Assembly: GCF_014109765.1 (NCBI RefSeq)
Contig: NZ_CP059139.1
Span: 1,860,001-1,924,000 of the forward strand
Origin: Pseudomonas berkeleyensis
GTDB lineage: Bacteria > Pseudomonadota > Gammaproteobacteria > Pseudomonadales > Pseudomonadaceae
Direction of reading: 5' to 3'
Length of the DNA stretch: 64,000 bases
Below the pieces are notes generated by a model, which worked only from the letters and a program-made list of their open reading frames with translations, was not told where the DNA came from and searched no databases. Positions 40,441 to 53,482 of the stretch are shown piece after piece; the stretch's first letter is position 1, and each line of letters starts with the position of its first letter. The translations under genes were made by a program, and so were the position numbers.

Positions 40441-40764
40441 TCAGCGCTCCAGGTGTTGCAGCTTGTCCTTCACGCCATCCCACTCTTCGGCGTCCGGCAG
40501 AGCATCTTTCCTTTCGGTGATGTTTGGCCAGACTTCTGCCAGTTCGGCGTTCAGCTCGATGAACTCCTGCATGCCGTCAGGCACTTCGTCTTCGGAGAAA
40601 ATTGCCTGGGCTGGGCATTCTGGCTCGCACAGGGCGCAGTCGATGCACTCGTCCGGATGGATGACCAGAAAGTTCGGGCCTTCGTAGAAGCAATCGACCG
40701 GGCAGACCTCCACACAGTCGGTGTATTTGCACTTGATGCAGTTGTCGGTGACGACGAAGGTCAT
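40441..40764 (-). CDS. fdxA: 7Fe ferredoxin FdxA
   Basis: This 107-residue soluble electron carrier begins [20 protein letters not shown]. The Cys pattern ([18 protein letters not shown], then [12 protein letters not shown]) matches a 3Fe-4S plus 4Fe-4S ferredoxin of the Azotobacter FdI type. The acidic C-terminal extension is normal for this subfamily. It is convergent with rsmZ, and mutS lies 140 bases upstream on the same strand. Confidence 0.95.
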
Positions 40765-40904
40765 GTCTGATTCTCTCCTCGGGCGGCAGTCTGGGCCCTT
40801 TCTGCGAAGGGCTGCCAGGCGCTTTGTCAGTAGCCGCGGCTCAGGCTGTAAACCGGGGCGGTCGTAAAATTGCGCGCGATTCTAGCAGTTTGCGCGCGGC
40901 AGCG

Positions 40905-43484
40905 TTAGATCCGCGTCTTCCATGCATATAACAGCTCAAGGGCTTTGCGCGGCGTCAGATCATCGGGGTTGATCTTGCCCAGCTCTTCCACGAGTGGATG
41001 CGGCACGCTGGCGAACAGGTCGCTCTGCATCGGTGCCGAGCTGTTGCCTGGAGTCTGCGAGGGCAAGTCATGCGGCAGGCTGGTGGTTTCCAGGCGTGCC
41101 AGATGCTCGCGAGCGCGGCTGATTACCGTGCCAGGCACGCCTGCCAGTTGTGCCACGGCCAGACCATAGCTCTGGCTTGCCGGCCCGGGTTGGACATGAT
41201 GAAGGAAGACGATGCGTTCGTTGTGTTCGGTCGCTGAAAGATGCACGTTGGCCACTACAGGCTCGCTTTCCGGCAATACGGTCAGCTCGAAGTAATGGGT
41301 GGCGAACAGGGTGAATGCACGCAGGCGGGCCAGGTGTTCGGCTGCCGACCACGCTAGCGACAGACCATCGAAGGTGCTGGTGCCGCGACCGACTTCATCC
41401 ATCAGCACCAGGCTGCGCTCGCTGGCGTTGTGCAGGATATTGGCGGTTTCGCTCATCTCGACCATGAAGGTCGAGCGTCCGCCTGCCAGGTCGTCCGAAG
41501 AGCCGATACGGGTGAATATACGGTCGACCAGAGATAGTTCGCAGGCTGCTGCCGGTACGAAGCTGCCGATATGGGCCAGCAGGACGATCAGTGCGGTCTG
41601 GCGCATGTAGGTGGATTTACCACCCATGTTCGGGCCGGTGATGATCAGCATGCGGCGACTGTCGTCGAGATCCAGGTCGTTGGCTACGAATGGCGTGGTC
41701 AATACCTGCTCGACTACCGGGTGACGGCCTTGGTCGATGCGCATGCATGGCTCGTCGACGAAGCGCGGGCGGTTCAGGTCGAGGTTCAGCGCGCGCTCGG
41801 CCAGGTTGCTCAGCACGTCCAGTTCGGCCAGGGCGGCAGCGCTGTCCTGCAATGGCGCCAGGTGACCAATCAGGCGCTCCAGCAATTCGTCGTAGAGCAT
41901 CTTCTCGCGGGCCAGGGCACGGCTCTTGGCGGAAAGCGCCTTGTCTTCGAACTCCTTCAGCTCAGGGGTGATGAAACGCTCGGCACCTTTGAGCGTCTGC
42001 CTGCGGATGTAGTCGGCCGGTGCCGATTCGGCCTGTTTGCTCGGCAGTTCGATGAAGTAGCCGTGTACGCGGTTGTAGCCGACCTTGAGATTGGCCAGGC
42101 CGGTACGCGTTTTTTCGCGGGCTTCGAGATCCATGAGGAACTGGCCGGCGTTCTCGCTCATCGCCTGCAGTTCATCGAGTTCGGCGTCGTAGCCGGTCTT
42201 GAGGACTCCGCCGTCGCGGATCACCGCAGGTGGATTGTCAATGATCGCCCGGGACAGCAGCTCGGCCAGTTCGGGGTAGGTGGCAATGCTTGCGGCCAAC
42301 TGTTGCAGGTGCGGTGTGTCCAGCGAACTCATTGCCTGCTGCAGTTCGGGGAGGGCGGCCAGGGCGTCACGTAGCCGTGCCAGGTCACGCGGGCGCGCAT
42401 TGCGCAGGCCGATGCGGGCGAGAATGCGCTCGAGATCGCCAATCTCCTTGAGTTGCGGTTGCAGGGTTTCGAAGCGGTAACCGTCGAGCAGGCGAGCGAT
42501 GGCGTCCTGGCGTGCCTCAAGCACGCTACGGTCGCGTAGCGGGCGGTTCAGCCAGCGCCCCAGCAGGCGACTTGCCATGGCGGTCTGGCAGCGATCCATC
42601 ACCGATTGCAGGGTGTTGTCGCGGCCACCTGCAAGGTTGATGTCCAGCTCCAGGTTACGGCGGCTGGCGCCATCGAGGATCACCGTATCATCTAGGCGTT
42701 CATGGCGCAGGCTGCGCAGGTGAGGCAGAGCAGTGCGCTGGGTTTCCTTGGCATAACCGAGCAGGCAGCCGGCGGCGCCGATTGCCAGGGTAAGGTTCTC
42801 GCAGCCGAAGCCTTTCAGATCCTGGGTGCTGAATTGCTGGCACAGGCTCTTGAACGCGCTGTCGCGGTCGAAATCCCATGGCGCGCGACGGCGCGAGCCT
42901 TTGCGTTTTTCGGCTGGCAAGCCCTGGGGCCAGTCGTCGGGGATCAGCAGCTCGGCGGGGCTCAGCCGTTCCAGTTCGGCCAGCAGGTTTTCCCAGCCCT
43001 TGATCTCCTGCACGCTGAAGCGACCGCTGGTGATATCCAGCACAGCCAGGCCGAACAGGCGTTCATCGCCAAGTACGGCGGCTAGCAGGTTGTCGCGGTG
43101 CTCATCGAGCAAGGCTTCATCGCTGATGGTGCCGGGGGTAATGATGCGCACCACCTGACGCTCGACCGGCCCTTTGCTGGTGGCCGGGTCGCCGATCTGT
43201 TCGCAGATCACCACCGATTCGCCGAGCTTGACCAGCTTGGCCAGGTAGCCTTCGAGCGAATGGAAAGGAATGCCACACATGGGGATCGATTGGCCTGCCG
43301 ACTGGCCGCGTGCGGTCAGGGTGATATCGAGCAGCTTGGCTGCCTTCTTCGCGTCTTCGTAGAAAATCTCGTAGAAGTCACCCATGCGATAGAACATCAA
43401 CTGATCCGGGTGCTGGTTCTTCAGCTTCCAGTACTGCTGCATCATCGGAGTGTGCTGAGAGAAATCGGAAATAGCTTTATTCAT
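40905..43484 (-). CDS. mutS: DNA mismatch repair protein MutS
   Basis: This 859-residue mismatch sensor has the mismatch-intercalating Phe37-x-Glu39 in [16 protein letters not shown]. The Walker A is [15 protein letters not shown] near residue 615, the Walker B region is [17 protein letters not shown], and a C-terminal dimer region follows. The start is ATG 43482-43484 ([19 protein letters not shown]). Upstream in-frame codons extend into prophage DNA. No good ribosome-binding site precedes it. The phage integrase stop codon is only 50 bases upstream on the same strand, so the native promoter region may be displaced. Confidence 0.96.
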
Positions 43485-43534
43485 CAGTAGCTTAGAGATT
43501 AGTACAAATTTTTGTGGGGCAGGATTGGGGCAAT
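43485..43534. other. Candidate host-prophage junction (attachment-site region)
   Basis: The 50 bases between mutS and the integrase must contain or abut one prophage end, since mutS is host and int is phage. Two direct copies of TGGGGCA lie at 43515-43521 and 43526-43532, 11 bases apart, and could be integrase arm sites. The core cannot be defined without the other end of the prophage. Confidence 0.55.
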
Positions 43535-44776
43535 TCAGTTGGTGCTTTGCATGCCTGACCAGATGTGCTGCAGCTCGTTTGGGGACTCGTCGTCCATCCA
43601 TTTGGCGTACACCTGAACCAGCATGGTGAAGTCCTTGTGACCCATCTGCTTGGCGATGAACGCGAGGTTACCACGGGCGACCAGGCACCAGCAGGCATAG
43701 GTGTGCCGAGTTTGGTACGGACGGCGCGGGCGGATCTTCGCGCGGCGCTGGATGTTCGCCCACTTGCAGTTCCATGAGGACGGGATGAACCATGGATTGA
43801 CGTGCTTCTTGCGCGCCTGCACGACGGGCGAGAGCAGCGGGGTCACTGTCTCTTGCATAGACTCATGCCTGCTCAACTGCACGTCGATGGTCTGCGGCTC
43901 GATGCCGTGCTCGATGGCCAGCAGCTCGCGGCAGGCTTCCAGTGCTGGCGGGAACAGCAGCACCGTGCGGCGCTTGCCGGTCTTTGGCAGCTTGAAGGTG
44001 CCCTGGCTGGTGATGGCACGGTTGATGTGGATCTGCCCCTTCGCCAGGTCGATGTCCTCCCTGGCCAGCGCACCCAGTTCGCCGGGGCGTATGCCGGTGT
44101 ACACGGCCAGGGTCACTGCTGCCCGATCCATGGGGTGAAGGCATCCCTTGTTTAGCAGCTCGGCCAGCTCGGCTTTGGTGAGTGGGTCGGGGTCGCGGTC
44201 GGTCATCTCGAAACGGGTGCAGGCACTTGCCAGCCCCGGCCGGCAATAGCCGTTTGCTTCGCACCAGCCCAGGAACCCGGCGAGGACGGCCAGGTAGTGG
44301 TTCACCGTCGAGGTGGTGCGGGTAGTGATCAGCGTGACGCGCAGGTTCTGGATGTCCTCGGGCATCAGTACGCTGGCCAGTCGGTCTTTGCCCAGTAACT
44401 CGATGCAGATGTCGAGTGCCAGGACATAGCGGCGTTCGGTTTCCTCGGTGATGTCGACGGCCTTGAGCGGCTTGTAACGGGCCAGCAACAGGTGCAGGCG
44501 CTCGTCGCGGTTGCTGCTGTAGTTGCCGGCCTGGCGGGACTCGGGGAAGTGCTGGGCATAGTCGAAGGTGCCGGTCTTGATGGCATGAAGCACTGCCGCC
44601 CGGAGCTGGGAGGCGTGCTTGATGTTGGCCTTGGTGACCGGTAAACCGAGGGTTTCGCGGCAGCGGCGGCGCTTCCACATGAACACGATGCGGATGCTGT
44701 TGCCGTGGATCTCGACCCCGGTGTGCTTCGCCAGCTCGGCCTCTAGGCCGCTTCCTGGGGTGACTGCTCTACCCAC
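43535..44776 (-). CDS. int: Prophage tyrosine recombinase (integrase)
   Basis: This 413-residue protein has an N-terminal arm-binding region, a core-binding domain (about 95-185) and a catalytic domain (about 195-400). Catalytic residues are Arg230 in [12 protein letters not shown], Arg357 in [10 protein letters not shown], His380 in MGHKD and the nucleophile Tyr390 in VQVYAKWM. The usual His of the HxxR box is Tyr354 here. The likely start is GTG 44776, overlapping the excisionase-like gene by 34 bases. It is the last gene of the leftward phage operon, and transcription would continue into mutS. Confidence 0.95.
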
Positions 44777-44940
44777 TTATCTACCTCCTCGATGTTGATG
44801 AAAATCCGCCCGTCACGCGCCTTGCGCCACATGCGGCCTTGCGACCACATGCCACTCTTAACCTTGTGCTCGATGGCGTTGACGGTGTAACCGAGCAATT
44901 CGGCGGCTTTGGGGATGAGTACCCAGCGAGGTGTGCTCAT
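44743..44940 (-). CDS. Excisionase-like small DNA-binding protein
   Basis: This 65-residue protein starts MSTPRWVLIPKAAELLGYTV and has a predicted winged helix-turn-helix with [14 protein letters not shown] at the end, as in excisionase/AlpA-type proteins. It sits directly upstream of int and overlaps it, the standard xis-int arrangement. Its ATG overlaps the stop of the PP-loop gene (ATGA). The role in directing excision is inferred from fold and position. Confidence 0.8.
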   Translation of the reverse strand: MSTPRWVLIPKAAELLGYTVNAIEHKVKSGMWSQGRMWRKARDGRIFINIEEVDKWVEQSPQEAA

Positions 44941-46007
44941 GCTGCCTCCTCTATCTTCACTGGCTGCCAGTCGCTATCGCATAGGCCGTAGGCGCTGCTG
45001 CAGGCGGTGGAGTCGGCTTCGCCGTCGATGGCCATGAGGTCGTACTGGATGCCGCCGCGTGTTGTTTTCGACCACTCCACGGCCTCGCGAATATTCGCCA
45101 GTGCAACGATCTGCTCCGAGCTCATGTGCTTGATTGATCCTTTCTGGTGCTTGGCGTTGGCCCCTGCGAAGAAGGTTGCTGCGCCGCGCTTGCTGGCCAG
45201 TCGGGTGAGGTGTTCCCACTGCTCAATGCGGTCGATGTGCTCGGGGAAGCGGGCCGCGATCTCGCGCAGCTCGCCTTTGCGGCAGTTGATGCAGGGCATG
45301 CAGCCGACGCGCCCCATGCCGAGGCTGTAGAGCGGGTTCGGTTTAATGCCCATGTAGCGGTGCGCCTCGAACACGCCGGCTACGTCCCAGTTCAGCAGGG
45401 GGCGGTAGTTGTAGAGATTGCCGCCGACGTGTTCGGCCTCGGGCAGATAGCGCCGTGCCTCGGACTCGTCGCGCCTGACGCCTTGCCAGCTGAGAATCAT
45501 GTTCTGGCCATCCATTAGTGGCAGCATCACCTGTTCGATGATGACGTCGCGCTTGAGCGCCTCGGTGCAGAACTGCGCTTTGCGGCTTGGGAAGCGGCCG
45601 CGCCACAGGCATAGGTCAAGGAATGGGATTCCTGTTGGCTGCAGCACCTGCAGCGCTGCTTCTACGACGGTTTCTGCTATGCCCTGGGCGCGCCACTTGG
45701 TGGCGATGAACTCGCGCTTGCGGGCGATCTGGCGGGAGAAGTCCGCGCTGCGGCGTTCAATGGTTACGCCCGTGGCTTGCTCAAGATAGTCGATGTACTC
45801 CAGCGTCAGCTCGTGCTCGTTGCCGGTGTCCGCGAACACGGCGCGCAGGTTGGGCGCACCCTGGGCGATGGCCAGCAGCAGGAGGGCGGTGGAGTCCTTG
45901 CCGCCCGAGACGCTGACGATGTTGTGCTGTTCGCCCAGCAGGATCTCGGTCGGGTGGAATGGCCAACGGATCGCTGTGGCCAGGTCGATTTGGGTTAGGA
46001 CGGTCAT
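44937..46007 (-). CDS. Phage PAPS-reductase-family PP-loop protein
   Basis: This 356-residue protein has the PP-loop SVSGGKDSTALLLL at residues 32-45 and VFADTGNEHELTLEYI, typical of ATP-pyrophosphatase enzymes of the PAPS reductase/DndC group. Cysteines at 147 (RKAQFCTEALKRD) and 236, 239 and 242 (GCMPCINC) could hold an iron-sulfur cluster. It is not in a sulfate-assimilation setting: its neighbours are xis and int, and it is coupled to xis by ATGA. Possible roles are nucleic-acid sulfuration or other modification, or defence and anti-defence. The substrate cannot be read from the sequence. Confidence 0.85.
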   Translation of the reverse strand: MTVLTQIDLATAIRWPFHPTEILLGEQHNIVSVSGGKDSTALLLLAIAQGAPNLRAVFADTGNEHELTLEYIDYLEQATGVTIERRSADFSRQIARKREFIATKWRAQGIAETVVEAALQVLQPTGIPFLDLCLWRGRFPSRKAQFCTEALKRDVIIEQVMLPLMDGQNMILSWQGVRRDESEARRYLPEAEHVGGNLYNYRPLLNWDVAGVFEAHRYMGIKPNPLYSLGMGRVGCMPCINCRKGELREIAARFPEHIDRIEQWEHLTRLASKRGAATFFAGANAKHQKGSIKHMSSEQIVALANIREAVEWSKTTRGGIQYDLMAIDGEADSTACSSAYGLCDSDWQPVKIEEAA

Positions 46008-46075
46008 GCTGCACCCCGCTGGACATGGTGGCAGGGTGCCGGCAAGCTCGGTGTCGCTAGGGCATTGAGGAGTGT

Positions 46076-46702
46076 ATGGACGTGTCCATTCCTAAAAAAA
46101 TGGTGGAGCGGTCCTTGTGGGCGCTCTGGGTATTGCTTGTCGGTGGTGCGTTTCTCTGGATGCTGGTCGGGTCGGTTGCTTACTGGTCTCTGCATGGATG
46201 GCTGCCGGACAAGGCCGCCGATTGGGTGCAAGCAATTGGTAGTGTGGTCGCAATACTGGCGGTCATAGGTGTCAGTTACTGGGAGCGGCGTAATGTCCAG
46301 CTCGATAAGTCCCGCAGCGATTACCAGTACCTTATGCGCGCGTTCAACGCCTCGGTTAGGCTTCAAGGCGCATGCCGCGTGGTGGGGGCATGCATCCAGG
46401 CCGGCCCCGAAGGCACAGCCTTGGAGATATACCAGCGACGCCTCAAGGATCTCTACGAGGGCGTCTGCGAACACAGCTACTCCACATTTGTGGATCTGCA
46501 GTTCGCCGAGGCCTGGGCAGCTCACAAGCGCTGCGTTGCATTGCTCATTGAGGAGCTGGATCTCTACCTTGCCGGTAGTTCTGAGGCAATACTCGATGGC
46601 TGCGAGCACTTGGTTACAGCTGCCGATGATTACGTAGACCAGCTTAAGACTGCATTGCAGCGGCATAGTCGGCTCGTAGGTGAGGGTGCTTGGTCGCATT
46701 AG
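46076..46702 (+). CDS. Two-span membrane protein of unknown function (prophage accessory gene)
   Basis: This 208-residue protein has two hydrophobic spans, about 13-35 (SLWALWVLLVGGAFLWMLVG) and 50-67 (VQAIGSVVAILAVIGVSYW), with a long cytoplasmic C-terminal part predicted to be helical. GAGGAG lies four bases before the ATG. It is transcribed against the surrounding leftward operon, so it needs its own promoter and may be expressed in the lysogen. I do not recognise a named family. Superinfection exclusion is a reasonable but unproven guess. Confidence 0.75.
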   Translation: MDVSIPKKMVERSLWALWVLLVGGAFLWMLVGSVAYWSLHGWLPDKAADWVQAIGSVVAILAVIGVSYWERRNVQLDKSRSDYQYLMRAFNASVRLQGACRVVGACIQAGPEGTALEIYQRRLKDLYEGVCEHSYSTFVDLQFAEAWAAHKRCVALLIEELDLYLAGSSEAILDGCEHLVTAADDYVDQLKTALQRHSRLVGEGAWSH

Positions 46703-46989
46703 CTTGTAGTGCGTATACCCCTCGACAAGCTGCGCGTGCAGGCGGTTTTGAGGGCGGAGCGATGGGCTCAACTCGCGGGCGCGGCGCACGCCTGTCGTGG
46801 GGTGTGCAGCTGCTGCGCAGCTGGCGGGCAGGGGATGGGATGTTGTCGCGCCTTCGGCGCGGCGGTTTATAACGCCCCCGCGCGAGTCCTGCAGGCGGCC
46901 GGCCGGCACCGTGCAAGGCAGGTTCAGCGGGTGGCGGCCGCCGCCGTGCTGTCGCACGGCAGTGGCTACGGTGGTGGCGGGGGCTTGGG
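46703..46989. other. GC-rich stretch with no confident gene
   Basis: Several frames stay open here because of high GC. On the minus strand an ATG near 46992 overlaps the stop of the upstream gene as ATGA and opens a frame that reads on antisense through the membrane-protein gene to 46004. Another minus frame (46644-46916) has only a TTG start. CGCCTTCGGCGCG near 46848 is a small hairpin. I cannot decide whether a short protein is made. Confidence 0.4.
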
Positions 46990-47457
46990 TCATTGGTCGC
47001 CCCCTTGCTGTGGCTGCTTGAGCCCTTCGGGCGAGCCGGACTGTAGGCGCTCGATTGCCTGGCGCGCGGCTTGCTCCGGTGTTGCGCCTTTTCCTGTCGC
47101 GATGGGTTCCGGCTCTTCGCCGAACAGTTCTGCGTGCCACGGCCCCTCGTATTCAGGCGTCAGCGCAATGCGGTACTGCTGCAGGATCTGGCTGAGGTTC
47201 TGGCCATCCAGCATCGGCAGCCAGCCCAGTGGCGTGCCCTGGCCATCGGTGAACTTGTCGTGTGTCCAGTTCCAGCCTGCGAACTGCCAGCGATCTATCT
47301 GGTCGTTCTGGAAGTTGTTCTGGCCGATTGTTGCGAAGGGTTCGTCGCCATCGTCAATGGCGTTCTCATCGAAGCTCACGAGCAAGCGGATAAGCCGCCC
47401 GTCTTTGGGCGCTGAGTGCATGGAAAGCCACGGTGCTGGCAAGGTTTGGACGTTCAC
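46990..47457 (-). CDS. Phage protein of the DUF551-like type
   Basis: This 155-residue protein begins at GTG 47455-47457 (MNVQTLPAPWLSMHSAPKDG). The W-x-M-x-S-A-P-K-D-G opening and the later GWLPM resemble a widespread small phage family of unknown role. GGAGGT is a strong ribosome-binding site six bases upstream. The start overlaps the stop of the HD-domain gene (GTGA), so the pair is coupled. The longer open frame to 47664 is antisense-like and rejected. Confidence 0.72.
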   Translation of the reverse strand: MNVQTLPAPWLSMHSAPKDGRLIRLLVSFDENAIDDGDEPFATIGQNNFQNDQIDRWQFAGWNWTHDKFTDGQGTPLGWLPMLDGQNLSQILQQYRIALTPEYEGPWHAELFGEEPEPIATGKGATPEQAARQAIERLQSGSPEGLKQPQQGGDQ

Positions 47458-48221
47458 GCCTTCACCTCCTGCGCGATGCTCATGAGTCCTGCAGGCGAGG
47501 CAGTTGAGGTGCCGTGGATCAGTTCGCGCTCGGCCTGGGCAAACACCTTGGTGCGGTGGGTGGTGGCCAGCAGCTCCATCAGCTGATGGTGGTAGACCTG
47601 GCGGGCGTGAGTGGGCGTCCATTCGGGGATGGCCTTGGCCAGGGGCTCGACGCCTTCGAGGCATTCCCAGGGCTCGGGGTGCAGGGGCATGAGCTGCTGC
47701 CGCTCGGTGGCCAGGGCGATCATGTCCGCCTCGTGCACGCAGTCAGGCAGCGCCGGGTCAAGGTCGAAGCGTTCGCAGATGGCCAGCCATAGGCGGCGCT
47801 CTATCTGCTTGTAAGTGTCGATCAGGATCGACAGCCCGCCGAACTCAGGGTCGCTGAAAATTCGCTGCTGCTTGGCGAACTCCCAGGCGCTGACAGGGCT
47901 GTGGCTGTGCTGGTTGAGTACCGCCCTCCAGGCGGCGTTGCGGCGCTTGGCGGCCTCGATCATCAGCAGCTTGATGGGGCGGGCAATGTCGGCTATGTAG
48001 GCCTCGGCCGCGTCGTGCAGCAGGGCGGCCAGCTTGTGTTCCTGCGGCACGATGTCGGCGACGATCAGGGAATGCTGGGCGACCGAGTAGTGGTGGCGGG
48101 TCTGGCCATTGAAGCGGCAGACGTGGGCCAGGCCGTGGCAGATGTCGTCAATGCGGATCTGCTTGGCCTGGGGCTTGAGGATGTCCACCTGGGTGGCGCT
48201 TTGGGTGAGTATCCAAGTCAT
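47454..48221 (-). CDS. HD-domain phosphohydrolase (YfbR-like nucleotidase type)
   Basis: This 255-residue protein has the HD signature spread over RHHYSVAQHSLIVADIV (first His) and LAALLHDAAEAYIADIARPI (HD pair), with a later Asp in CVHEADMIALATE. This fits metal-dependent 5'-deoxynucleotidases of the YfbR class. Phage members may act on nucleotide pools during infection. The N-terminal QVDILKPQAKQIRIDDICHGLAHVCRF is typical of the phage group. It is coupled to its downstream neighbour. Confidence 0.85.
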   Translation of the reverse strand: MTWILTQSATQVDILKPQAKQIRIDDICHGLAHVCRFNGQTRHHYSVAQHSLIVADIVPQEHKLAALLHDAAEAYIADIARPIKLLMIEAAKRRNAAWRAVLNQHSHSPVSAWEFAKQQRIFSDPEFGGLSILIDTYKQIERRLWLAICERFDLDPALPDCVHEADMIALATERQQLMPLHPEPWECLEGVEPLAKAIPEWTPTHARQVYHHQLMELLATTHRTKVFAQAERELIHGTSTASPAGLMSIAQEVKA

Positions 48222-48222
48222 G

Positions 48223-48447
48223 TCAGGCGGCCTCTTTCTTAAGGTCGACCAGCAGCACCGCGTTGCGGGTGTCGGTGCGCAGCTTCCAGAGCGTTTCGGC
48301 GCCGAGTTGGGCGCGGATCTGGTTCTGCAGCTCGGTGTGTTCGCGCTCCAGTTGGGCCAGCTTGGCGGTGGCTCGGTCGTAGTCGTGTTGCAGCTTGCCG
48401 GCCGCCTCGGGCGTGAGGCGCAGCAGGGGGAAGTTACGGCGCATCAT
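48223..48447 (-). CDS. Small phage protein, coiled-coil
   Basis: This 74-residue protein starts MMRRNFPLLRLTPEAAGKLQ and has a heptad-like helix (KLAQLEREHTELQNQIRAQL). The ATG overlaps the stop of the upstream gene as ATGA. Its stop is one base before the HD gene start region, so it belongs to the same operon. I do not recognise the family. Confidence 0.65.
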   Translation of the reverse strand: MMRRNFPLLRLTPEAAGKLQHDYDRATAKLAQLEREHTELQNQIRAQLGAETLWKLRTDTRNAVLLVDLKKEAA

Positions 48448-49118
48448 GCTGCGTCCTCCATGTCCCGTGCTGCTTCCTGGGCTTCTTCGTGCTCGTTCTC
48501 CAGCTTCTCCAGTTCTGTCTGGTAATGGCGAATGACCTCTCGCCAGTTGGCGTTGCGGTGCGGCTGGAACATCACCGGCAACTCGACACACCACTCGCCG
48601 TCGGACTCTTTCAGGTTGGCAATGGTGGCCAGGAAGTCGATCAACTCGCTGTCCGGGTGGGGCTTGGTGTTGGCTGCGGCGATCTTGAGGCGGTCGGCCA
48701 TGCCCAGCACCTGGGCCATGAGGTGGCGGGTGGTGCGGGCGTGGTCGGGGGAGTTCAGGCTGTCGAAGGTGCTGGCGGCGAGCATCAGTTTGTCGGTGAC
48801 TGCCAGCAGAACAGCCTGATCCGCAGGCGTCAGTGGGGCGGCGGCGCCGAGGCGCTGGAGTAGGTCGCGCTCAAGGTGCTGCATGCTCTCGCGCAGGCTG
48901 GCGGTGTCGCGTGTGCGGATGTCGAGCTGGTCGCGGGCTTCGGCCAGGTCGGCGCGGATGCCGGCGACGATCTTCTTCCAGTAGTGCTTCCCGGTGGTGC
49001 GGCCTTGTTCGTATCCGGCTGCTTTGCCGGTGCGCAGGCCGATGCAGTAGAAGATGAAGCCGGCGAGCGCGGCAACGGTGAGCATGGCGAACAGGCCATA
49101 GATTTGCGGGGTGGTCAT
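48444..49118 (-). CDS. Phage protein with one N-terminal membrane span and coiled coils
   Basis: This 224-residue protein begins MTTPQIYGLFAMLTVAALAG, with a single span at about residues 6-28. A basic stretch and helical regions follow; the C-terminal HYQTELEKLENEHEEAQEAA is probably coiled coil. GAGGAG precedes the start. No enzymatic motif is seen. It is anchored in the inner membrane facing the cytoplasm by prediction, and its function is unknown. Confidence 0.7.
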   Translation of the reverse strand: MTTPQIYGLFAMLTVAALAGFIFYCIGLRTGKAAGYEQGRTTGKHYWKKIVAGIRADLAEARDQLDIRTRDTASLRESMQHLERDLLQRLGAAAPLTPADQAVLLAVTDKLMLAASTFDSLNSPDHARTTRHLMAQVLGMADRLKIAAANTKPHPDSELIDFLATIANLKESDGEWCVELPVMFQPHRNANWREVIRHYQTELEKLENEHEEAQEAARDMEDAA

Positions 49119-49189
49119 GGTGGTGCTCCTCGTGTTTGCCGGTCGCTGGTGGTGGCAGCGGGTGCGGCGTCAGGTGGTTTTTGGGTGGA

Positions 49190-49384
49190 TCAGTCGTCGT
49201 CGGGGTCGGGTGGATCTGCCAGGCCGGCCATCAGCTTGGCGGCGTAGGCACTGTGGCCTTCCTCCCGTAGGACGTCGTAACGGTGCCAGTCTTCGCAAAG
49301 GGCGACGTGTTCCTGACAAAGCCCGATTTCTTCGTGGTCGTACTCGCCGAGTTCTGCGCGGCATTCGCGGCAATAGCGGTACAT
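49190..49384 (-). CDS. Small Cys/His protein, possible zinc finger
   Basis: This 64-residue acidic protein begins MYRYCRECRAELGEYDHEEI. The pattern C-x2-C-x13-C-x3-H could bind zinc. It starts one base after the stop of the 56-residue gene upstream, within the leftward operon. The family is not recognised. Confidence 0.6.
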   Translation of the reverse strand: MYRYCRECRAELGEYDHEEIGLCQEHVALCEDWHRYDVLREEGHSAYAAKLMAGLADPPDPDDD

Positions 49385-49385
49385 G

Positions 49386-49556
49386 TCAGCCGGCCTTCGC
49401 TTGCTTGTGGGCAGCCTGCAGGCTGGCGTAGGTCTTGAATCCGTGGTTGCGTGCGATGGCCTCCAGCGCCTGCATGTGGGTGAGTTCGGTGGCCTTGCGG
49501 AGCTGCTTGGCCTGCTTTTTGATGCGGTCGAGGCTGGGTAGCGGGTTGGCTTGCAT
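49386..49556 (-). CDS. 56-residue helical phage protein
   Basis: The minus strand reads MQANPLPSLDRIKKQAKQLR, then KATELTHMQALEAIARNHGF and KTYASLQAAHKQAKAG, and stops at 49386-49388. The motif KxLRKAxxLTHxQALExIAxxxGFxxxxxLxxA is one I associate with short plasmid and phage proteins of unknown role. It is tightly packed: its stop is followed by ATG after one base, and it begins three bases after the PrtN-like stop. Confidence 0.65.
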   Translation of the reverse strand: MQANPLPSLDRIKKQAKQLRKATELTHMQALEAIARNHGFKTYASLQAAHKQAKAG

Positions 49557-49559
49557 GGC

Positions 49560-49886
49560 TTAGTCCTCTTGCTCTTTGCCCAGCACCTTGGCTAGGGCGT
49601 CGTCGGCTTGGCCGGCGCGTTGGTCGATGTGGGCGGCCAGGTGGTGGATCTCGATGTAGCGCATGGCCTTGTTGCTGTCCTGCAGGGTCGTGACCGGTAG
49701 GGGGATGGCTGCGGTGCCGACTTGATTGCGGAAGCGCTCGATGTTGAGGTTGCGGAACAGCTCGGCGCGCACGGCCTCCAGTGGGATCAGGACGGTGCCG
49801 AACATGCGAAAGAGCATGTCCAGCGTGGTCGGCCTGGGGGCTGGCAGCAGGCGCAGTGGCTGCTGTTGGTCGTTGGGTGGGCTCAT
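49560..49886 (-). CDS. PrtN-like transcription activator
   Basis: The 108-residue protein has the layout of pyocin activator PrtN: LDMLFRMFGTVLIPLEAVRA, then LNIERFRNQVGTAAIPLPVT, then KAMRYIEIHHLAAHIDQRAG. In P. aeruginosa, PrtN turns on pyocin genes after DNA damage. Here the gene is part of the leftward phage operon, coupled by ATGA to its upstream neighbour. Control of phage or host bacteriocin genes is inferred from the family only. Confidence 0.72.
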   Translation of the reverse strand: MSPPNDQQQPLRLLPAPRPTTLDMLFRMFGTVLIPLEAVRAELFRNLNIERFRNQVGTAAIPLPVTTLQDSNKAMRYIEIHHLAAHIDQRAGQADDALAKVLGKEQED

Positions 49887-50350
49887 GCCTTGCGGGCCTC
49901 ACGAGGGCGGCGCGGCAGCAGGCGCAGCGGGTCTTTGTTGGGGTGGCGGGGCTTTGGCTTGGCCGGGCCGACGTTGATGCCGAAGGCCGCGATTGCCTGA
50001 TTCAGCCTGGCCAGCACGCCCTGGGCGGTGGAGCCGTAGCCGGTGAAGCGGATCTCGTCGGCCTTGCCGATGGCTTCGATGGAGGCGAACAGCTCGATGC
50101 CTTGCACATCCGGGCCGATGCGCAGTGCGGAGCGGTGGGTGAAGCCGGTGCCCAGGGCTTCGGTGAGGCGGGCGACGGCGCCTGCGAGCTGCATGTGCTG
50201 CAGCTGCAGGTCGGTGGCCTGGCCAAGGCGCAGGCCGGCCGCACTGGCGGCCAGGTGCAGGGCGCTGCTGATGACTTCGCTGTTGCGCTGTGCCTCGGGC
50301 ATGCGCAGCAGCTCGATCAGGGTGTCGTCGAGTAGCTTGATGTCTTTCAT
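49883..50350 (-). CDS. Hypothetical phage protein
   Basis: This 155-residue protein starts MKDIKLLDDTLIELLRMPEA at ATG 50348-50350, after GGAGCAAACA. The body is Ala-rich and helical. The C-terminus is basic with Pro (PAKPKPRHPNKDPLRLLPRR), which could contact nucleic acid. The stop overlaps the PrtN-like start. I recognise no family. Upstream in-frame codons to 50488 run through the neighbouring gene and were rejected. Confidence 0.65.
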   Translation of the reverse strand: MKDIKLLDDTLIELLRMPEAQRNSEVISSALHLAASAAGLRLGQATDLQLQHMQLAGAVARLTEALGTGFTHRSALRIGPDVQGIELFASIEAIGKADEIRFTGYGSTAQGVLARLNQAIAAFGINVGPAKPKPRHPNKDPLRLLPRRPREARKA

Positions 50351-50553
50351 TGTTTGCTCCGGGCTGGGTGTTCCCAGGCTATGCGGCCCATGGTGCGAAC
50401 GAGTTCGCGCAGGTGCTCGGGCACTTGGTTGGCGATTGCCGCTTTGCGGTCGGCGAGGGTCGGCAGCTTGGAGATCACGGTCACCCACTGGCGGGCAGAG
50501 GTCGGGGTGATCTGCCGCCCGTCCGGGGTGGTGTATTTCAGCTCAGGCAACAT
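50347..50553 (-). CDS. Small hypothetical phage protein
   Basis: This 68-residue protein begins MLPELKYTTPDGRQITPTSA and has a helical middle (LADRKAAIANQVPEHLRELV). It overlaps the gene before it by 11 bases and the gene after it by ATGA, which supports real coding in a tightly coupled operon. Function unknown. Confidence 0.6.
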   Translation of the reverse strand: MLPELKYTTPDGRQITPTSARQWVTVISKLPTLADRKAAIANQVPEHLRELVRTMGRIAWEHPARSKQ

Positions 50554-50833
50554 CGCGCGGATCTGCCTGGGGTTCGGGCATCTGGCGCTCGATGCCGAGT
50601 TTGTCGGCGAGCCAGGGGATGCCTGCGTCGGTTACGCGGGTGCTGCGCGGGTACTGCATGCCTAGCCTGGGGTGCGGGTAGCGAAACTCGCGCGTGACCA
50701 GATAGAGCTTGGTCATTTCGGGGTTGGCGGGCAGGTTGAATTTGTCCAGCAGGCCTTTCTCGCGCATGCGCTTCATCAGCTCGCGATGCTTGAGGCCGAG
50801 GCTCTCGGCGGTGTCTTTGAGTGAGTGGCTCAT
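50543..50833 (-). CDS. KilAC/ANT-domain-like phage protein
   Basis: This 96-residue protein begins MSHSLKDTAESLGLKHRELM, then KRMREKGLLDKFNLPANPEM and TRVTDAGIPWLADKLG. This resembles the C-terminal ANT (KilAC) domain of phage antirepressors: a helix-turn-helix followed by a strand pair and a terminal helix. No N-terminal BRO or Rha domain is attached. DNA binding is likely by analogy. Start ATG 50831-50833. Confidence 0.65.
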   Translation of the reverse strand: MSHSLKDTAESLGLKHRELMKRMREKGLLDKFNLPANPEMTKLYLVTREFRYPHPRLGMQYPRSTRVTDAGIPWLADKLGIERQMPEPQADPRDVA

Positions 50834-50841
50834 GTGACCTC

Positions 50842-51444
50842 CTACGCTGCGGCCGCGCGCTGGGGCGTGGCGATGATGTGCAGATGCTCGATGCTGATCA
50901 GCAGGCGCTTGAGGCATTCGCGCTGGTCGCCGCGCACGGTGAAGCACTTGGTGCGCGGGCGAGCGGTGCCAATGCTGGCGATGACGGTCACGCCATCGGC
51001 CGGGCGGGTGCGGTGCACGGCGACGTTGATGGGGTGTTCGTGGCCGGTTTCGAGGCTGGTGAAGCCGCCGTGGCGCACCATGTGCTTGAGCCGGCCCAGC
51101 TGGGTATCGTTCAGCAGGGCGTCGGGCTCGGGCAGCAGGGGCTGGCGGGTGACACGGGGCGGCGCCAGCTCGCCACCGTCCACGCGACCATTGGCGATGG
51201 CGTCGATGAAGTCAGCTACCTGCAGGTGCTTCTCGGGGTGTACGGTTTGCACGTCGAGGGTGTGCACCTGGTCGCCCATTTCGATGCGCACGGCGGTGGT
51301 GGGCTGGCCGCGTTCGATCTTGATGCGGAACATCACCTGATCGCGGCTGTAGGGCATGCGAGACACGGTGTGATTGAAGGTGCCGGACATGTTCAGCTGG
51401 GCCTGCAGGCGCAGCAGGTTGTCTTCGGGGAGGGCGAAGTTCAT
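50842..51444 (-). CDS. Hypothetical phage protein, 200 residues
   Basis: The protein begins MNFALPEDNLLRLQAQLNMS. It has two similar-looking beta-rich halves: VMFRIKIERGQPTTAVRIEM near residue 37 and INVAVHRTRPADGVTVIASI near residue 139. It ends in an Ala tail. The ATG overlaps the stop of the upstream gene (ATGA). I do not recognise the family. Confidence 0.68.
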   Translation of the reverse strand: MNFALPEDNLLRLQAQLNMSGTFNHTVSRMPYSRDQVMFRIKIERGQPTTAVRIEMGDQVHTLDVQTVHPEKHLQVADFIDAIANGRVDGGELAPPRVTRQPLLPEPDALLNDTQLGRLKHMVRHGGFTSLETGHEHPINVAVHRTRPADGVTVIASIGTARPRTKCFTVRGDQRECLKRLLISIEHLHIIATPQRAAAA

Positions 51445-51743
51445 GCGGCCACCTCCTGCGTGGGAGTGGCAGGCATATCGAGGTAGCCCTGCAGCCAGGT
51501 AAGCGTTCTAGTTAGCGCGCTTAGGCAAGCCTGTTGCTTCTGATGCTCGGAATGCCAGTAACCGGTTCGACGGTCGACTTCGTGGCTCGTGTCCTGATAG
51601 TTGGTGTCAGCCGAACAAACGCGAACACAGAACGCGCAGACGTGGCCTTGGAGGTCTACAAAGGCGTGCCATTTACCTTGCTGATTGATGATCAACACGG
51701 TGCTGACGATCTGCAGCAGCAGTTCTTCGATGGTGGGTTTCAT
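51441..51743 (-). CDS. Hypothetical phage protein, 100 residues
   Basis: It begins MKPTIEELLLQIVSTVLIIN and contains HVCAFCVRVCSADTNYQD, with three closely spaced Cys. The ATG overlaps the preceding gene's stop and the stop overlaps the next ATG, so it lies in a coupled string. Function unknown. Confidence 0.62.
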   Translation of the reverse strand: MKPTIEELLLQIVSTVLIINQQGKWHAFVDLQGHVCAFCVRVCSADTNYQDTSHEVDRRTGYWHSEHQKQQACLSALTRTLTWLQGYLDMPATPTQEVAA

Positions 51744-51961
51744 GCCGCATGCCCTCCATCGTTCGGATCGAAGGGCGGCTGATCGGCCACGGTGTAGCGG
51801 CGGTCGGCGGCTTCCTTGGGCAGGAAATCGACGTGGCCGGTCGTGAACAGGTACTTGGGTTTTACGCGGGAGAACTGGCAGCCGGCCGACTGGGCGGCAC
51901 GGCGTAGTTCAAAAAGGCGCTCGTGCCCGCAGGACGGGAGAGCGTGGACAGATGCAGACAT
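51740..51961 (-). CDS. First gene of the leftward phage operon, hypothetical
   Basis: This 73-residue protein begins MSASVHALPSCGHERLFELR and contains SRVKPKYLFTTGHVDFLPKE. GAGGTAAACC is a good ribosome-binding site. It is the first gene after the leftward promoter at 51997-52025. Function unknown. First genes of such operons are often anti-host or regulatory, but nothing in this sequence shows that. Confidence 0.62.
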   Translation of the reverse strand: MSASVHALPSCGHERLFELRRAAQSAGCQFSRVKPKYLFTTGHVDFLPKEAADRRYTVADQPPFDPNDGGHAA

Positions 51962-51996
51962 GGTTTACCTCGGCTCTGTGGTGGAGAGACGAGGCA

Positions 51997-52025
51997 AATA
52001 AAACGCATCGTTGTTGGTATGTCAA
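51997..52025 (-). promoter_or_regulatory. Leftward early promoter (pL-like)
   Basis: On the minus strand a perfect TTGACA (52025-52020) and TTTATT (52002-51997) are spaced by 17 bases. The -35 lies inside the operator palindrome, so repressor binding would block it. It drives the operon from 51961 down to int. Confidence 0.8.
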
Positions 52026-52032
52026 CAACGAT
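52007..52032. promoter_or_regulatory. Operator palindrome over the leftward promoter
   Basis: ATCGTTGTTG and CAACAACGAT are perfect 10-base inverted arms around GTATGT. The half-site CAACAACG recurs in the cI-cro gap at 52801-52817, which argues for a common repressor, probably CI and/or Cro. Confidence 0.8.
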
Positions 52033-52062
52033 TTGTTGTATTTTGAGATTTGGCGTGTATCG

Positions 52063-52746
52063 CTAGAGGGCACCTCCGTGCCAGACAACGCGACCGACGA
52101 TGCAAAGCTGTTCGAGGTCTGAATCTGAAACGGGCTGATCGGGGTAGGAGCGCTTATCTTCGTTGTCGCTTCGGATGATCCAGCCGCCTGTCAGGGACTG
52201 TATCAGGCGCTTGATGATCAGTTCGCCGTCTGGCTTGCGTAGCGCGTAGATGCGTCCATCGCGCGCCTGGGTCTGGCTTTCGTCGAGCAGCACGACGTCG
52301 CCATCGCAGACTGTCGGTTCCATGCTGTGTCCTTGCACGTAGATCACGTGCAGGTTTCGCTCTCTCAGGCTCATTCGCGACAGCCATGCGCGCTTGAATA
52401 CCAGGCCGCCCTTTACCTCAATGTGATCATTAAGTTGGCCATTGCCTGCCGCGCCATGCGCTGTGTACTGGGGCACTAACGCGTACTCGGTGGCATCGGG
52501 TACGTGGCCGTAGGTTGCGGGCGTTTCTGCGGCTTGGGTTGGTGTGCCCTCAATCAGCTCCATAAGAGATACGTCGAGTGCAGTAGCCAGAGTGCGAAGG
52601 TCTGCCAGGTTTGGTTCGCGCAGCCCTTTCTCGTAGTTGCTGACGCGCGCCTGCCCTCTTTCCCAATTGCATTCGTTGCCGAGCTGCGTTTGGGAAAGGC
52701 CTTTTGCCTTGCGAAGGCGGGCGATTCGTGTGCCTAGATTTTCCAT
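52063..52746 (-). CDS. CI-type repressor, XRE helix-turn-helix plus S24 peptidase
   Basis: This 227-residue repressor has an N-terminal XRE domain (RIARLRKAKGLSQTQLGNEC, residues 7-26) and a C-terminal LexA/UmuD-type domain. The catalytic pair is Ser141 in GHSMEPT and Lys179 in IIKRLIQ. The probable autocleavage bond is Ala100-Gly101 in HGAAGNG. RecA-stimulated self-cleavage would induce the prophage. No ribosome-binding site lies close to the ATG, so the mRNA may be leaderless. It is divergent from cro. Confidence 0.93.
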   Translation of the reverse strand: MENLGTRIARLRKAKGLSQTQLGNECNWERGQARVSNYEKGLREPNLADLRTLATALDVSLMELIEGTPTQAAETPATYGHVPDATEYALVPQYTAHGAAGNGQLNDHIEVKGGLVFKRAWLSRMSLRERNLHVIYVQGHSMEPTVCDGDVVLLDESQTQARDGRIYALRKPDGELIIKRLIQSLTGGWIIRSDNEDKRSYPDQPVSDSDLEQLCIVGRVVWHGGAL

Positions 52747-52766
52747 ACAGGGAAAATATCACGCTC

Positions 52767-52791
52767 CGTTTAATTCAATGACGACTAAACG
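52767..52791. promoter_or_regulatory. Second inverted repeat in the cI-cro gap
   Basis: CGTTTA and TAAACG face each other across 13 bases, between the cI start and the rightward promoter. The arms differ from the CAACAACG operators. It could be a site for another regulator or overlap the cI promoter. Confidence 0.4.
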
Positions 52792-52793
52792 TG

Positions 52794-52822
52794 TTGCAAA
52801 AACAACGAATCGTTGTTAGGTT
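52794..52822 (+). promoter_or_regulatory. Rightward early promoter (pR-like) with operator in its spacer
   Basis: TTGCAA (52794-52799) and TAGGTT (52817-52822) are spaced by 17 bases. AACAACG-AAT-CGTTGTT (52801-52817) is a perfect palindrome that fills the spacer and shares its half-site with the leftward operator. Confidence 0.68.
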
Positions 52823-52850
52823 TCTTGCCGTACCAACTGGAGGCCGCAAG

Positions 52851-53078
52851 ATGAACCGCATTTCCGAGATCCGCCGAGCTGCTGGAATCTCGCAGCTCGC
52901 CCTGGTCGATCAGCTCCGCTGGTCGCAGGGGCGCGTCAGCAACTATGAGTCGGGTCGTCGAGTGCCAGGCCTCACTGAGTGTCGTGCCATTGTGCGTGCG
53001 CTCAATGTGCTGGGTGCTGACTGCTCGCTTGATGACGTATTCCCGCCTGAGGCTGAACAGGTTCCGGCTGCTGCATAG
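52851..53078 (+). CDS. Cro-like XRE regulator
   Basis: This 75-residue protein is little more than a helix-turn-helix domain (ISEIRRAAGISQLALVDQLR, then WSQGRVSNYESGRRVPGL), with a short tail. CTGGAGG precedes ATG 52851 by seven bases. It faces cI across the operator region, as the Cro of a genetic switch does. The open frame starting at 52791 lies in the promoter and is rejected. Confidence 0.85.
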   Translation: MNRISEIRRAAGISQLALVDQLRWSQGRVSNYESGRRVPGLTECRAIVRALNVLGADCSLDDVFPPEAEQVPAAA

Positions 53079-53482
53079 AAAAAAGGCGCCGTTAGGCGCC
53101 CTGTTTCCCGGTCGCCGTTTGCGCGGTGACCGCCAGAGCCCTAGGGCTCTGTGTTGCCTGCCTCTCCACCACAGATCAGCAGGCTAGCGTGACCACCTGA
53201 CTAAGGGGAGCCACGGCGTGACTATAGCAACACGTCATGCCGTGGTCACTGGCAGCCTTGCTCCATGGCTGCCACACCCAAGGCGCGCACCACCACTGCG
53301 CGCCGCGCCTGGGCCGGGATGCCTGGGGTTGTTCGTTCGCTGCCACCACCAGCGGGCGAGCTGTAAGGGCAGGGCTTGTGCGGAGCACAGGCCTTGCTCG
53401 GGGTGCGGTCGGTTCGCCGGCTGCATGCGACCACCTGACTATGGGGGCCGTGCCTTCGGGCATGGCTCCGGGAGTTTCTGCC
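53079..53482 (+). other. Structured noncoding region between cro and the CII-like gene
   Basis: No convincing gene lies here. GGCGCC-GTTA-GGCGCC at 53086-53101 is a hairpin just after cro. A strong hairpin spans 53211-53245 (CCACGGCGTGAC against GTCATGCCGTGG, one mismatch, 11-base loop). An 18-base direct repeat, GACCACCTGACTAAGGGG, is at 53191-53208 and 53429-53446 (one change). The leader of the rightward operon may carry RNA signals here. Confidence 0.6.

Follow-up and report, generated by a model that had tools for sequence, protein, structure and literature searches.

A prophage within mutS of Pseudomonas berkeleyensis probably supplies the start of the gene

The prophage and its junctions with mutS

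The window, a stretch of 64,000 nucleotides of the genome under study (G000:C1:1860001-1924000), was read on to 1964000, and positions past its right edge are given as extended coordinates. At the junction analyzed here, mutS lies next to the integrase gene of a prophage:

40905..43484, minus strand: mutS, 859 aa, Pfam domains MutS I-V; junction placed by attL/attR comparison
43444..43448, minus strand: attL core CCGAT (codon 13 and the first two bases of codon 14), from attL/attR comparison
83777-83781, extended (G000:C1:1943777-1943781): partner of the attL core
43446..43484, minus strand: substitute mutS start, 13 codons, at the left end of the prophage; like the cassette in attP of phage contigs L122 and L131
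43535..44776, minus strand: tyrosine integrase, 413 aa, GTG start; PF12167 (Arm-DNA-bind_2), PF00589 (Phage_integrase), phrog_1
44743..44940, minus strand: excisionase-like protein, 65 aa, overlapping the integrase start; phrog_539 (E 2.2e-13), no Pfam match

The mutS ATG (43484) and the integrase stop codon (43537-43535) are both on the minus strand with 50 bases between them, exactly as the first-pass annotation had described. That annotation also placed the insertion 50 bp upstream of mutS, which is wrong: the core CCGAT (43448-43444) falls inside the gene, at codons 13-14. We located this core by comparing both ends of the prophage with the ends of 14 further elements of the same integrase type (type A; the second integrase type found at mutS is called type B). 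The left end reads ATGAATAAAGCT...CACACTCCGAT, followed by GATGCAGCAG, which is the remainder of mutS; codons 1-13 (43484-43446) are on the prophage side and the host portion begins at about codon 14. The far end, on the same strand as mutS, reads ATGACCGATCTCTCAGCACACACCCCGAT followed by TGTG, which is a mutS start (MTDLSAHTP) truncated after codon 9. This displaced host start occupies extended positions 83805-83777, 40.3 kb away (about 1943.8 kb on G000:C1), and resembles both the mutS start of a relative, G012, and the displaced start of another genome, G198.

With the displaced host start at the far end and the rest of mutS at the left end, the prophage must lie inside mutS, and the 50-base gap together with the first 13 codons, being on the prophage side, is phage attachment-site DNA as judged by this comparison of ends. 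The mutS frame of the lysogen is whole (859 aa, all five MutS domains). The earlier suggestion that the host promoter lies in the gap, has been replaced or has been lost thus holds in part: the host leader has been moved off and mutS starts in phage DNA, but that leader is found at the far end of the prophage, not in the gap. Both landmarks that the first-pass annotation proposed to look for, the right end of the prophage and attB in a prophage-free relative, could be located. The host side of the displaced start has an MCP-like gene and a recX-like gene, both assigned by reading, as well as cinA and recA, assigned by Pfam. In G012, a natural empty site, a recA motif is 0.9 kb from mutS with cinA between them (by reading), and the mutS start, MTDLSAHTPMMQQ, is the one predicted for G000 after excision.

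The mutS-cinA-recA region had been called a prophage hot spot in pseudomonads, in accord with the accessible text of PMC2647930; the prophage 01-like insertions reported there for P. fluorescens share the chromosomal site, but are described as lying between mutS and cinA, not inside mutS. The precedent named at first, a phage-like element at mutL of S. pyogenes (the SpyCI islands, PMC3430984), likewise concerns the 5′ end of a mismatch-repair gene, but a closer precedent exists. According to the available part of PMC5296598, mobile elements that integrate into mutS were first described in 2017 by Chu et al. in V. splendidus 12B01, P. putida F1, E. coli 536 and B. multivorans CF2. They use the HTPMMQQ motif of mutS, have their integrase adjacent to mutS, supply a start of their own and leave the displaced host start at their far end; they range from 4 to >150 kb, include prophages and occur in Beta- and Gammaproteobacteria. 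By sequence, the G000 prophage is a further member of this class. Its insertion is likewise in HTPMMQQ, between HTP and MMQQ; its integrase is 50 bases from mutS, inside the 300-bp limit that defines the class; an orphaned host-type mutS start is present at its other end; and the element gives mutS an in-frame start. Relative to what is accessible of PMC5296598, the present analysis adds attP in phage contigs, the arm-site frame, another integrase type that uses these codons, leaders with arm relics in relatives free of both integrases, and a umuDC pair. Among the papers listed by a literature search at the level of titles and the beginnings of abstracts, with subscription papers mostly outside its scope, no further one concerned mutS attachment sites in Pseudomonas.

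Core, arm repeats and the predicted outcome of excision

To compare attachment sites across the genus, we ran a mutS-start pattern over 219 genomes and found at least two matches in 27. Pairs were read at both ends in 21 cases (15 type A and 6 type B) with a pattern that demanded ...CAYACNCCNAT at both ends, so that in-register pairs are favored and out-of-register ones would be missed. G160 was read later and is outside the 21; G004, G072, G107, G179 and G222 were left out, their places being on other contigs or not fitting an element. The reading gave a mutS junction without a displaced partner in G025 and G127, a displaced start alone in G075, and a type B integrase without a displaced partner in G008.

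The base that follows CCNAT differs between the two ends in 15/15 type A pairs (T at the displaced end, G in mutS), while the five core letters are identical at both ends in 14 of the 15, G164 differing at N. The in-register core of G000 is 5 bp only. Paired TGCCCCA-like repeats, 11 bp apart, flank the core in all 15 (≤1 mismatch each). The left repeats are at -89/-78 in 14 pairs and at -90/-79 in one; the right repeats are at +120/131 or +121/132 in 14 and at +133/144 in one. We infer that these repeats are integrase arm sites; the left pair in G000 is

43515..43521, minus strand: predicted integrase arm site TGCCCCA, 78 bases before the core end
43526..43532, minus strand: predicted integrase arm site TGCCCCA, 89 bases before the core end

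The mutS start codon sits between the left repeats and the core, so that, if the repeats are read as arm sites, the part of attL bound by integrase would overlap with the leader of mutS.

All 21 lysogenic mutS frames have an in-frame ATG, as do 20 of the 21 frames obtained by rejoining the flanks, G000 being in frame in both. Because the rejoined flanks restore an in-frame start in these 20 pairs, excision most likely swaps mutS leaders and does not break mutS. A switch between repair and mutator states of the kind known at S. pyogenes mutL, which had been proposed for this locus, is therefore not supported as stated: the mutS frame is intact in the lysogen and the excised gene is predicted to be in frame, which argues for a change of leader. 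The one exception is G162 (L055/L056), whose displaced start has no in-frame ATG; there, a return to the host leader would fail, and the phage-supplied start would be the sole working one. A short element in mutS was also seen (L041, G164:C115:2000-12000), with att sites 4.8 kb apart and a shortened integrase frame.

A longer repeat is present at the ends of the G000 prophage, in a different register:

43450..43462, minus strand: 13-bp exact direct repeat TCTCTCAGCACAC; second copy at the far end, 83785-83797

Its register is 2 bp off relative to the mutS reading frame, and recombination at TCTCTCAGCACAC would delete 2 bp and frameshift mutS. Cured cells would then be stable hypermutators, as reported for Vibrio splendidus 12B01, and the repeat does join both ends on one strand, its use removing exactly 2 bp, the size of the deletion that excision leaves in 12B01 (PMC5296598, accessible text). 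We consider this outcome very improbable. Three further matches, 13-14 bp long, came up in the same repeat scan in unrelated positions; such lengths arise by chance, and the evidence for the prophage ends is therefore their context and not the length of the repeat. The arm-like sites, by comparison, keep a near-fixed distance to the in-register CCNAT over 15 elements whose ends differ at the very next base, and at attL the whole of the 13-bp match falls to the phage side of this differing base. Use of TCTCTCAGCACAC for excision is thus unlikely, since the other elements share one register; the core comparison predicts no 2-bp deletion, but the out-of-register repeat is present. Chu et al. measured excision, and in the available part of their paper the elements of P. 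putida F1, E. coli 536 and B. multivorans CF2 excise scar-free; the G000 prophage is predicted to behave as the F1 element and not to scar as that of 12B01. The integrase frame is intact and an excisionase-like gene is present; attP was seen in relatives only.

Related integrases, phage contigs and putative relic leaders

How general is this arrangement? The type A integrase occurs in 18/219 genomes of the genus (E ≤ 1e-70), with mutS in frame at most 3.1 kb away in 17 of them; the exception is G075, where the 16.8 kb read downstream holds no mutS motif. The type B tyrosine integrase (328 aa, MRPRKKDRHLPA...) uses the same mutS codons (L037, L039, L058, L060, L061, L071, L249) and shows no meaningful pairwise similarity to type A (best E 0.05). 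It occurs in 8/219 genomes (E ≤ 1e-100), within 2.3 kb of mutS in every one, and the two types together lie beside mutS in 25 of the 219. In named genomes mutS is open downstream of a related integrase at 49/78 loci, in Pseudomonas, Stutzerimonas, Thiobacillus, Allopusillimonas and other hosts; 36 of these 49 have the arm pair 84-85 bases before the proline codon, and an ATG is not seen in two. The related strain Pseudomonas alcaliphila JCM 10630 shares the G000 junction and has an integrase of 95% identity. Lysogenic frames without an ATG before HTPMMQQ were observed in L212 (Paracidovorax) and L215 (Hydrogenophaga), which may use other starts or be damaged.

Viral sequences place the mutS start on related phages. 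Among the best 80 of 591 IMG/VR contigs with a related integrase, 61 have a P[MIL][MIL]QQ mutS motif downstream of the integrase, 17 have neither this motif nor attP (11 of them with <700 bases after int), and two (L122, L131) have an intact attP with a mutS start cassette. The order in both is left repeats, ATGAATAAAGC...CACACNCCNAT, TGTG and right repeats, with one mismatch in each left repeat of L131; past attP come phage-type genes that we read, from their translations, as an endolysin and a DNA adenine methylase. Since the start cassette sits within an attP that is followed by phage-type genes, we conclude on sequence that the mutS start is part of the phage in L122 and L131, a statement that applies to these relatives and not to the G000 phage itself. 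Against 50,697 phage records, a megablast of the 20.6-kb stretch 43400-64000 gave no match, and tblastn of the integrase gave 17 records, all at <60% identity.

The mutS leaders of the relatives appear to carry traces of the same elements. In the 6 type B pairs, the leader bears a native-like GTAGTATTAGAC box (as in some native leaders) in 6/6, and the displaced start is of the phage type. Leaders were read in 30 relatives, 4 of which are type A lysogens with perfect arms. Among the other 26, a 13-codon start beginning M[NS] occurs in 16, which have neither integrase, and in 12 of these 16 an arm pair is found at the expected place (≤4/14 mismatches; the misses are G006, G022, G026 and G027). 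The same test was positive in 0/10 relatives with other starts and at 53/20,000 random positions. At the displaced starts of the 21 pairs, it was positive for 12/14 of the phage type and 0/7 of the native type.

Elements of other bacterial families have arms at this distance as well, and we therefore favor a phage-to-host origin for these relic leaders, with fixation in hosts that lack both integrases. It is possible instead that a phage captured a host mutS leader, and possible that other kinds of element have used the mutS site. Six integrase-free genomes with phage-type leaders (G019, G034, G032, G005, G018, G020) have no orphan native start near cinA at ≤3 mismatches; the distance from recA to mutS is 1.3 kb in G018 and G020 and 7 to 36 kb in the other four. 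With no second scar near cinA, the idea of a fixed leader rests on the arm-site relics.

Probable expression of mutS from the phage leader

The leftward genes of the prophage end in xis-int-mutS, with a PAPS-reductase-domain gene (44937-46007) directly upstream of xis-int. The regulatory features at the start of this leftward series are

51997..52025, minus strand: putative leftward promoter TTGACA-17-TTTATT, toward int and mutS; read by eye, overlapping the palindrome 52007-52032
52007..52032, no strand assigned: operator-like palindrome ATCGTTGTTGACATACCAACAACGAT; half-site AACAACGAT 3 times in the window against 0.23 expected
52063..52746, minus strand: CI-like repressor, S24 peptidase domain
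52801..52817, no strand assigned: second operator-like palindrome, between the repressor gene and the helix-turn-helix regulator gene
52851-53072, plus strand: helix-turn-helix regulator gene, in the position of Cro

A 17-base operator pattern (≤2 mismatches) matches four times here, on three stretches, but also three times elsewhere in the genome, and its reversed control gives 2 hits. From the putative leftward promoter to mutS, a scan that is weak (shuffle level) lists no terminator-like site on the minus strand.

The gap itself contains no recognizable Shine-Dalgarno sequence: its pairing energy with the 16S tail is -0.5 kcal/mol, compared with -3.7 for the displaced host start, which bears out the earlier remark that mutS lacks a clear ribosome-binding site there. 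A full mutS promoter within the 50 bases, which that annotation had considered as well, does not emerge above shuffles in the sigma-70 scans, although these scans are weak here, the shuffle-based one missing displaced host leaders too. The best sigma-70-like site in about 150 bp scores 6, which 98.5% of 200 shuffles equal or beat, and a stricter second scan of 40700-53220 gave no promoter-like site on the minus strand. (TTGACA-17-TTTATT is absent from the stricter scan, which requires an A as the second base of the second hexamer.) By scan, then, no element-supplied promoter of consensus type stands out for mutS. Translational coupling through a TGATG overlap at the mutS start was rejected for G000, where the overlapping frame is open for 5 codons only and has no start; this frame is longer in some other elements.

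Because the gap has no recognizable promoter or Shine-Dalgarno sequence, mutS in the lysogen would depend on a weak, unrecognized promoter or on transcription from the leftward genes that end in xis-int. The putative leftward promoter overlaps the likely operator of the CI-like repressor; low mutS expression in the quiescent lysogen, and read-through from the leftward genes into mutS on induction, are therefore plausible. Upon excision, mutS would regain its own host leader in frame. We are thus highly confident, on sequence comparison, in the following reading: the prophage, 40.3 kb long, is inserted in mutS at codons 13-14 and supplies the start and 13 codons; the host start is at its right end; transcription and translation of mutS in the lysogen likely begin in phage DNA; and excision would return the gene's own leader in frame. 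The phage is likely to influence the amount of MutS made; our best guess is a modest lowering in the quiescent lysogen, restored by excision. Read-through from int cannot be the general rule, since in many other type A elements int and mutS are 0.8 to 3.8 kb apart, and both of those examined (G066, G088) have long divergent frames in that interval.

A stronger effect would be that lysogeny silences mutS as SpyCI does mutL, making the lysogen a mutator until excision restores repair. The phage leader has no recognized promoter or Shine-Dalgarno sequence, and most of the SpyCI strains tested were mutators, according to the accessible text of PMC3430984. That system differs in gene and host and in its growth-dependent mutator state, and in one strain a promoter within int rescued mutL (same source); the insertion in G000 is not of the SpyCI/mutL type, its target being mutS and the reading frame being kept. 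Against silencing, the family's phage contigs have an in-frame start cassette in attP, which makes little sense if mutS expression in the lysogen is not under selection. In addition, many relatives have a resident mutS start of this kind, with a weak Shine-Dalgarno sequence or none, and in G162 the in-frame ATG of the displaced start is gone, a loss suggesting that it is the phage-supplied start that is used. With mutS itself intact, we regard silencing as improbable.

At the opposite extreme, mutS might be just a conserved landing site, with a cassette that leaves the host undamaged and no effect on regulation with or without the prophage. An in-frame start in both states in 20 of the 21 pairs fits this proposal, as does the fact that two integrase types so dissimilar keep mutS open at the same codons. 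The leaders, however, are not equivalent: Shine-Dalgarno pairing over 14 type A pairs (G162 has no displaced start to score) averages -0.3 kcal/mol for the phage leaders and -2.5 for the starts they displaced, and the type B leaders, with their GTAGTATTAGAC box in every pair, range from -2.1 to -3.9, a better pairing than that of most type A leaders (+1.8 to -2.2). Site choice without consequence is accordingly possible but rather doubtful.

The rate of mutation is set by mismatch repair. If phages repeatedly exchange the mutS leader, and the new leader is sometimes kept, mutation rate would be a trait that phages can edit. The pairs make this proposal testable, lysogen against cured form, in that each presents one host gene with two leaders, nearly always in frame in both states. 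We suggest tentatively, a little short of even confidence, that this phage family has rewritten mutS regulation across Pseudomonas, its attachment site carrying a ready-made mutS front end that became fixed as the resident leader in phage-free lineages; in strains like G000 the prophage would also bring the genome's only umuDC, placing repair and error-prone synthesis under phage and SOS control.

The umuDC pair is at the right end of the prophage, past the right edge of the window, and consists of S24/UmuD-like and UmuC-like genes (IMS domains) at extended positions 81804-83571 (L033:17804-19571). Near the uncertain umuD start is the LexA-box-like sequence TACTGTTTGCATATACAGTA. The idea that umuDC is a constant part of these elements was rejected: umuC lies between attL and attR in 4/21 pairs (G000, G198, G088, G174), while the remaining 17 gave no umuC hit in that interval; two of these, G199 and G098, are split over contigs and may still have one. 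The prophage umuC is the sole umuC hit in the G000 genome (E ≤ 1e-40), and the elements of G198, G088 and G174 likewise hold the only umuC hit of their genomes.
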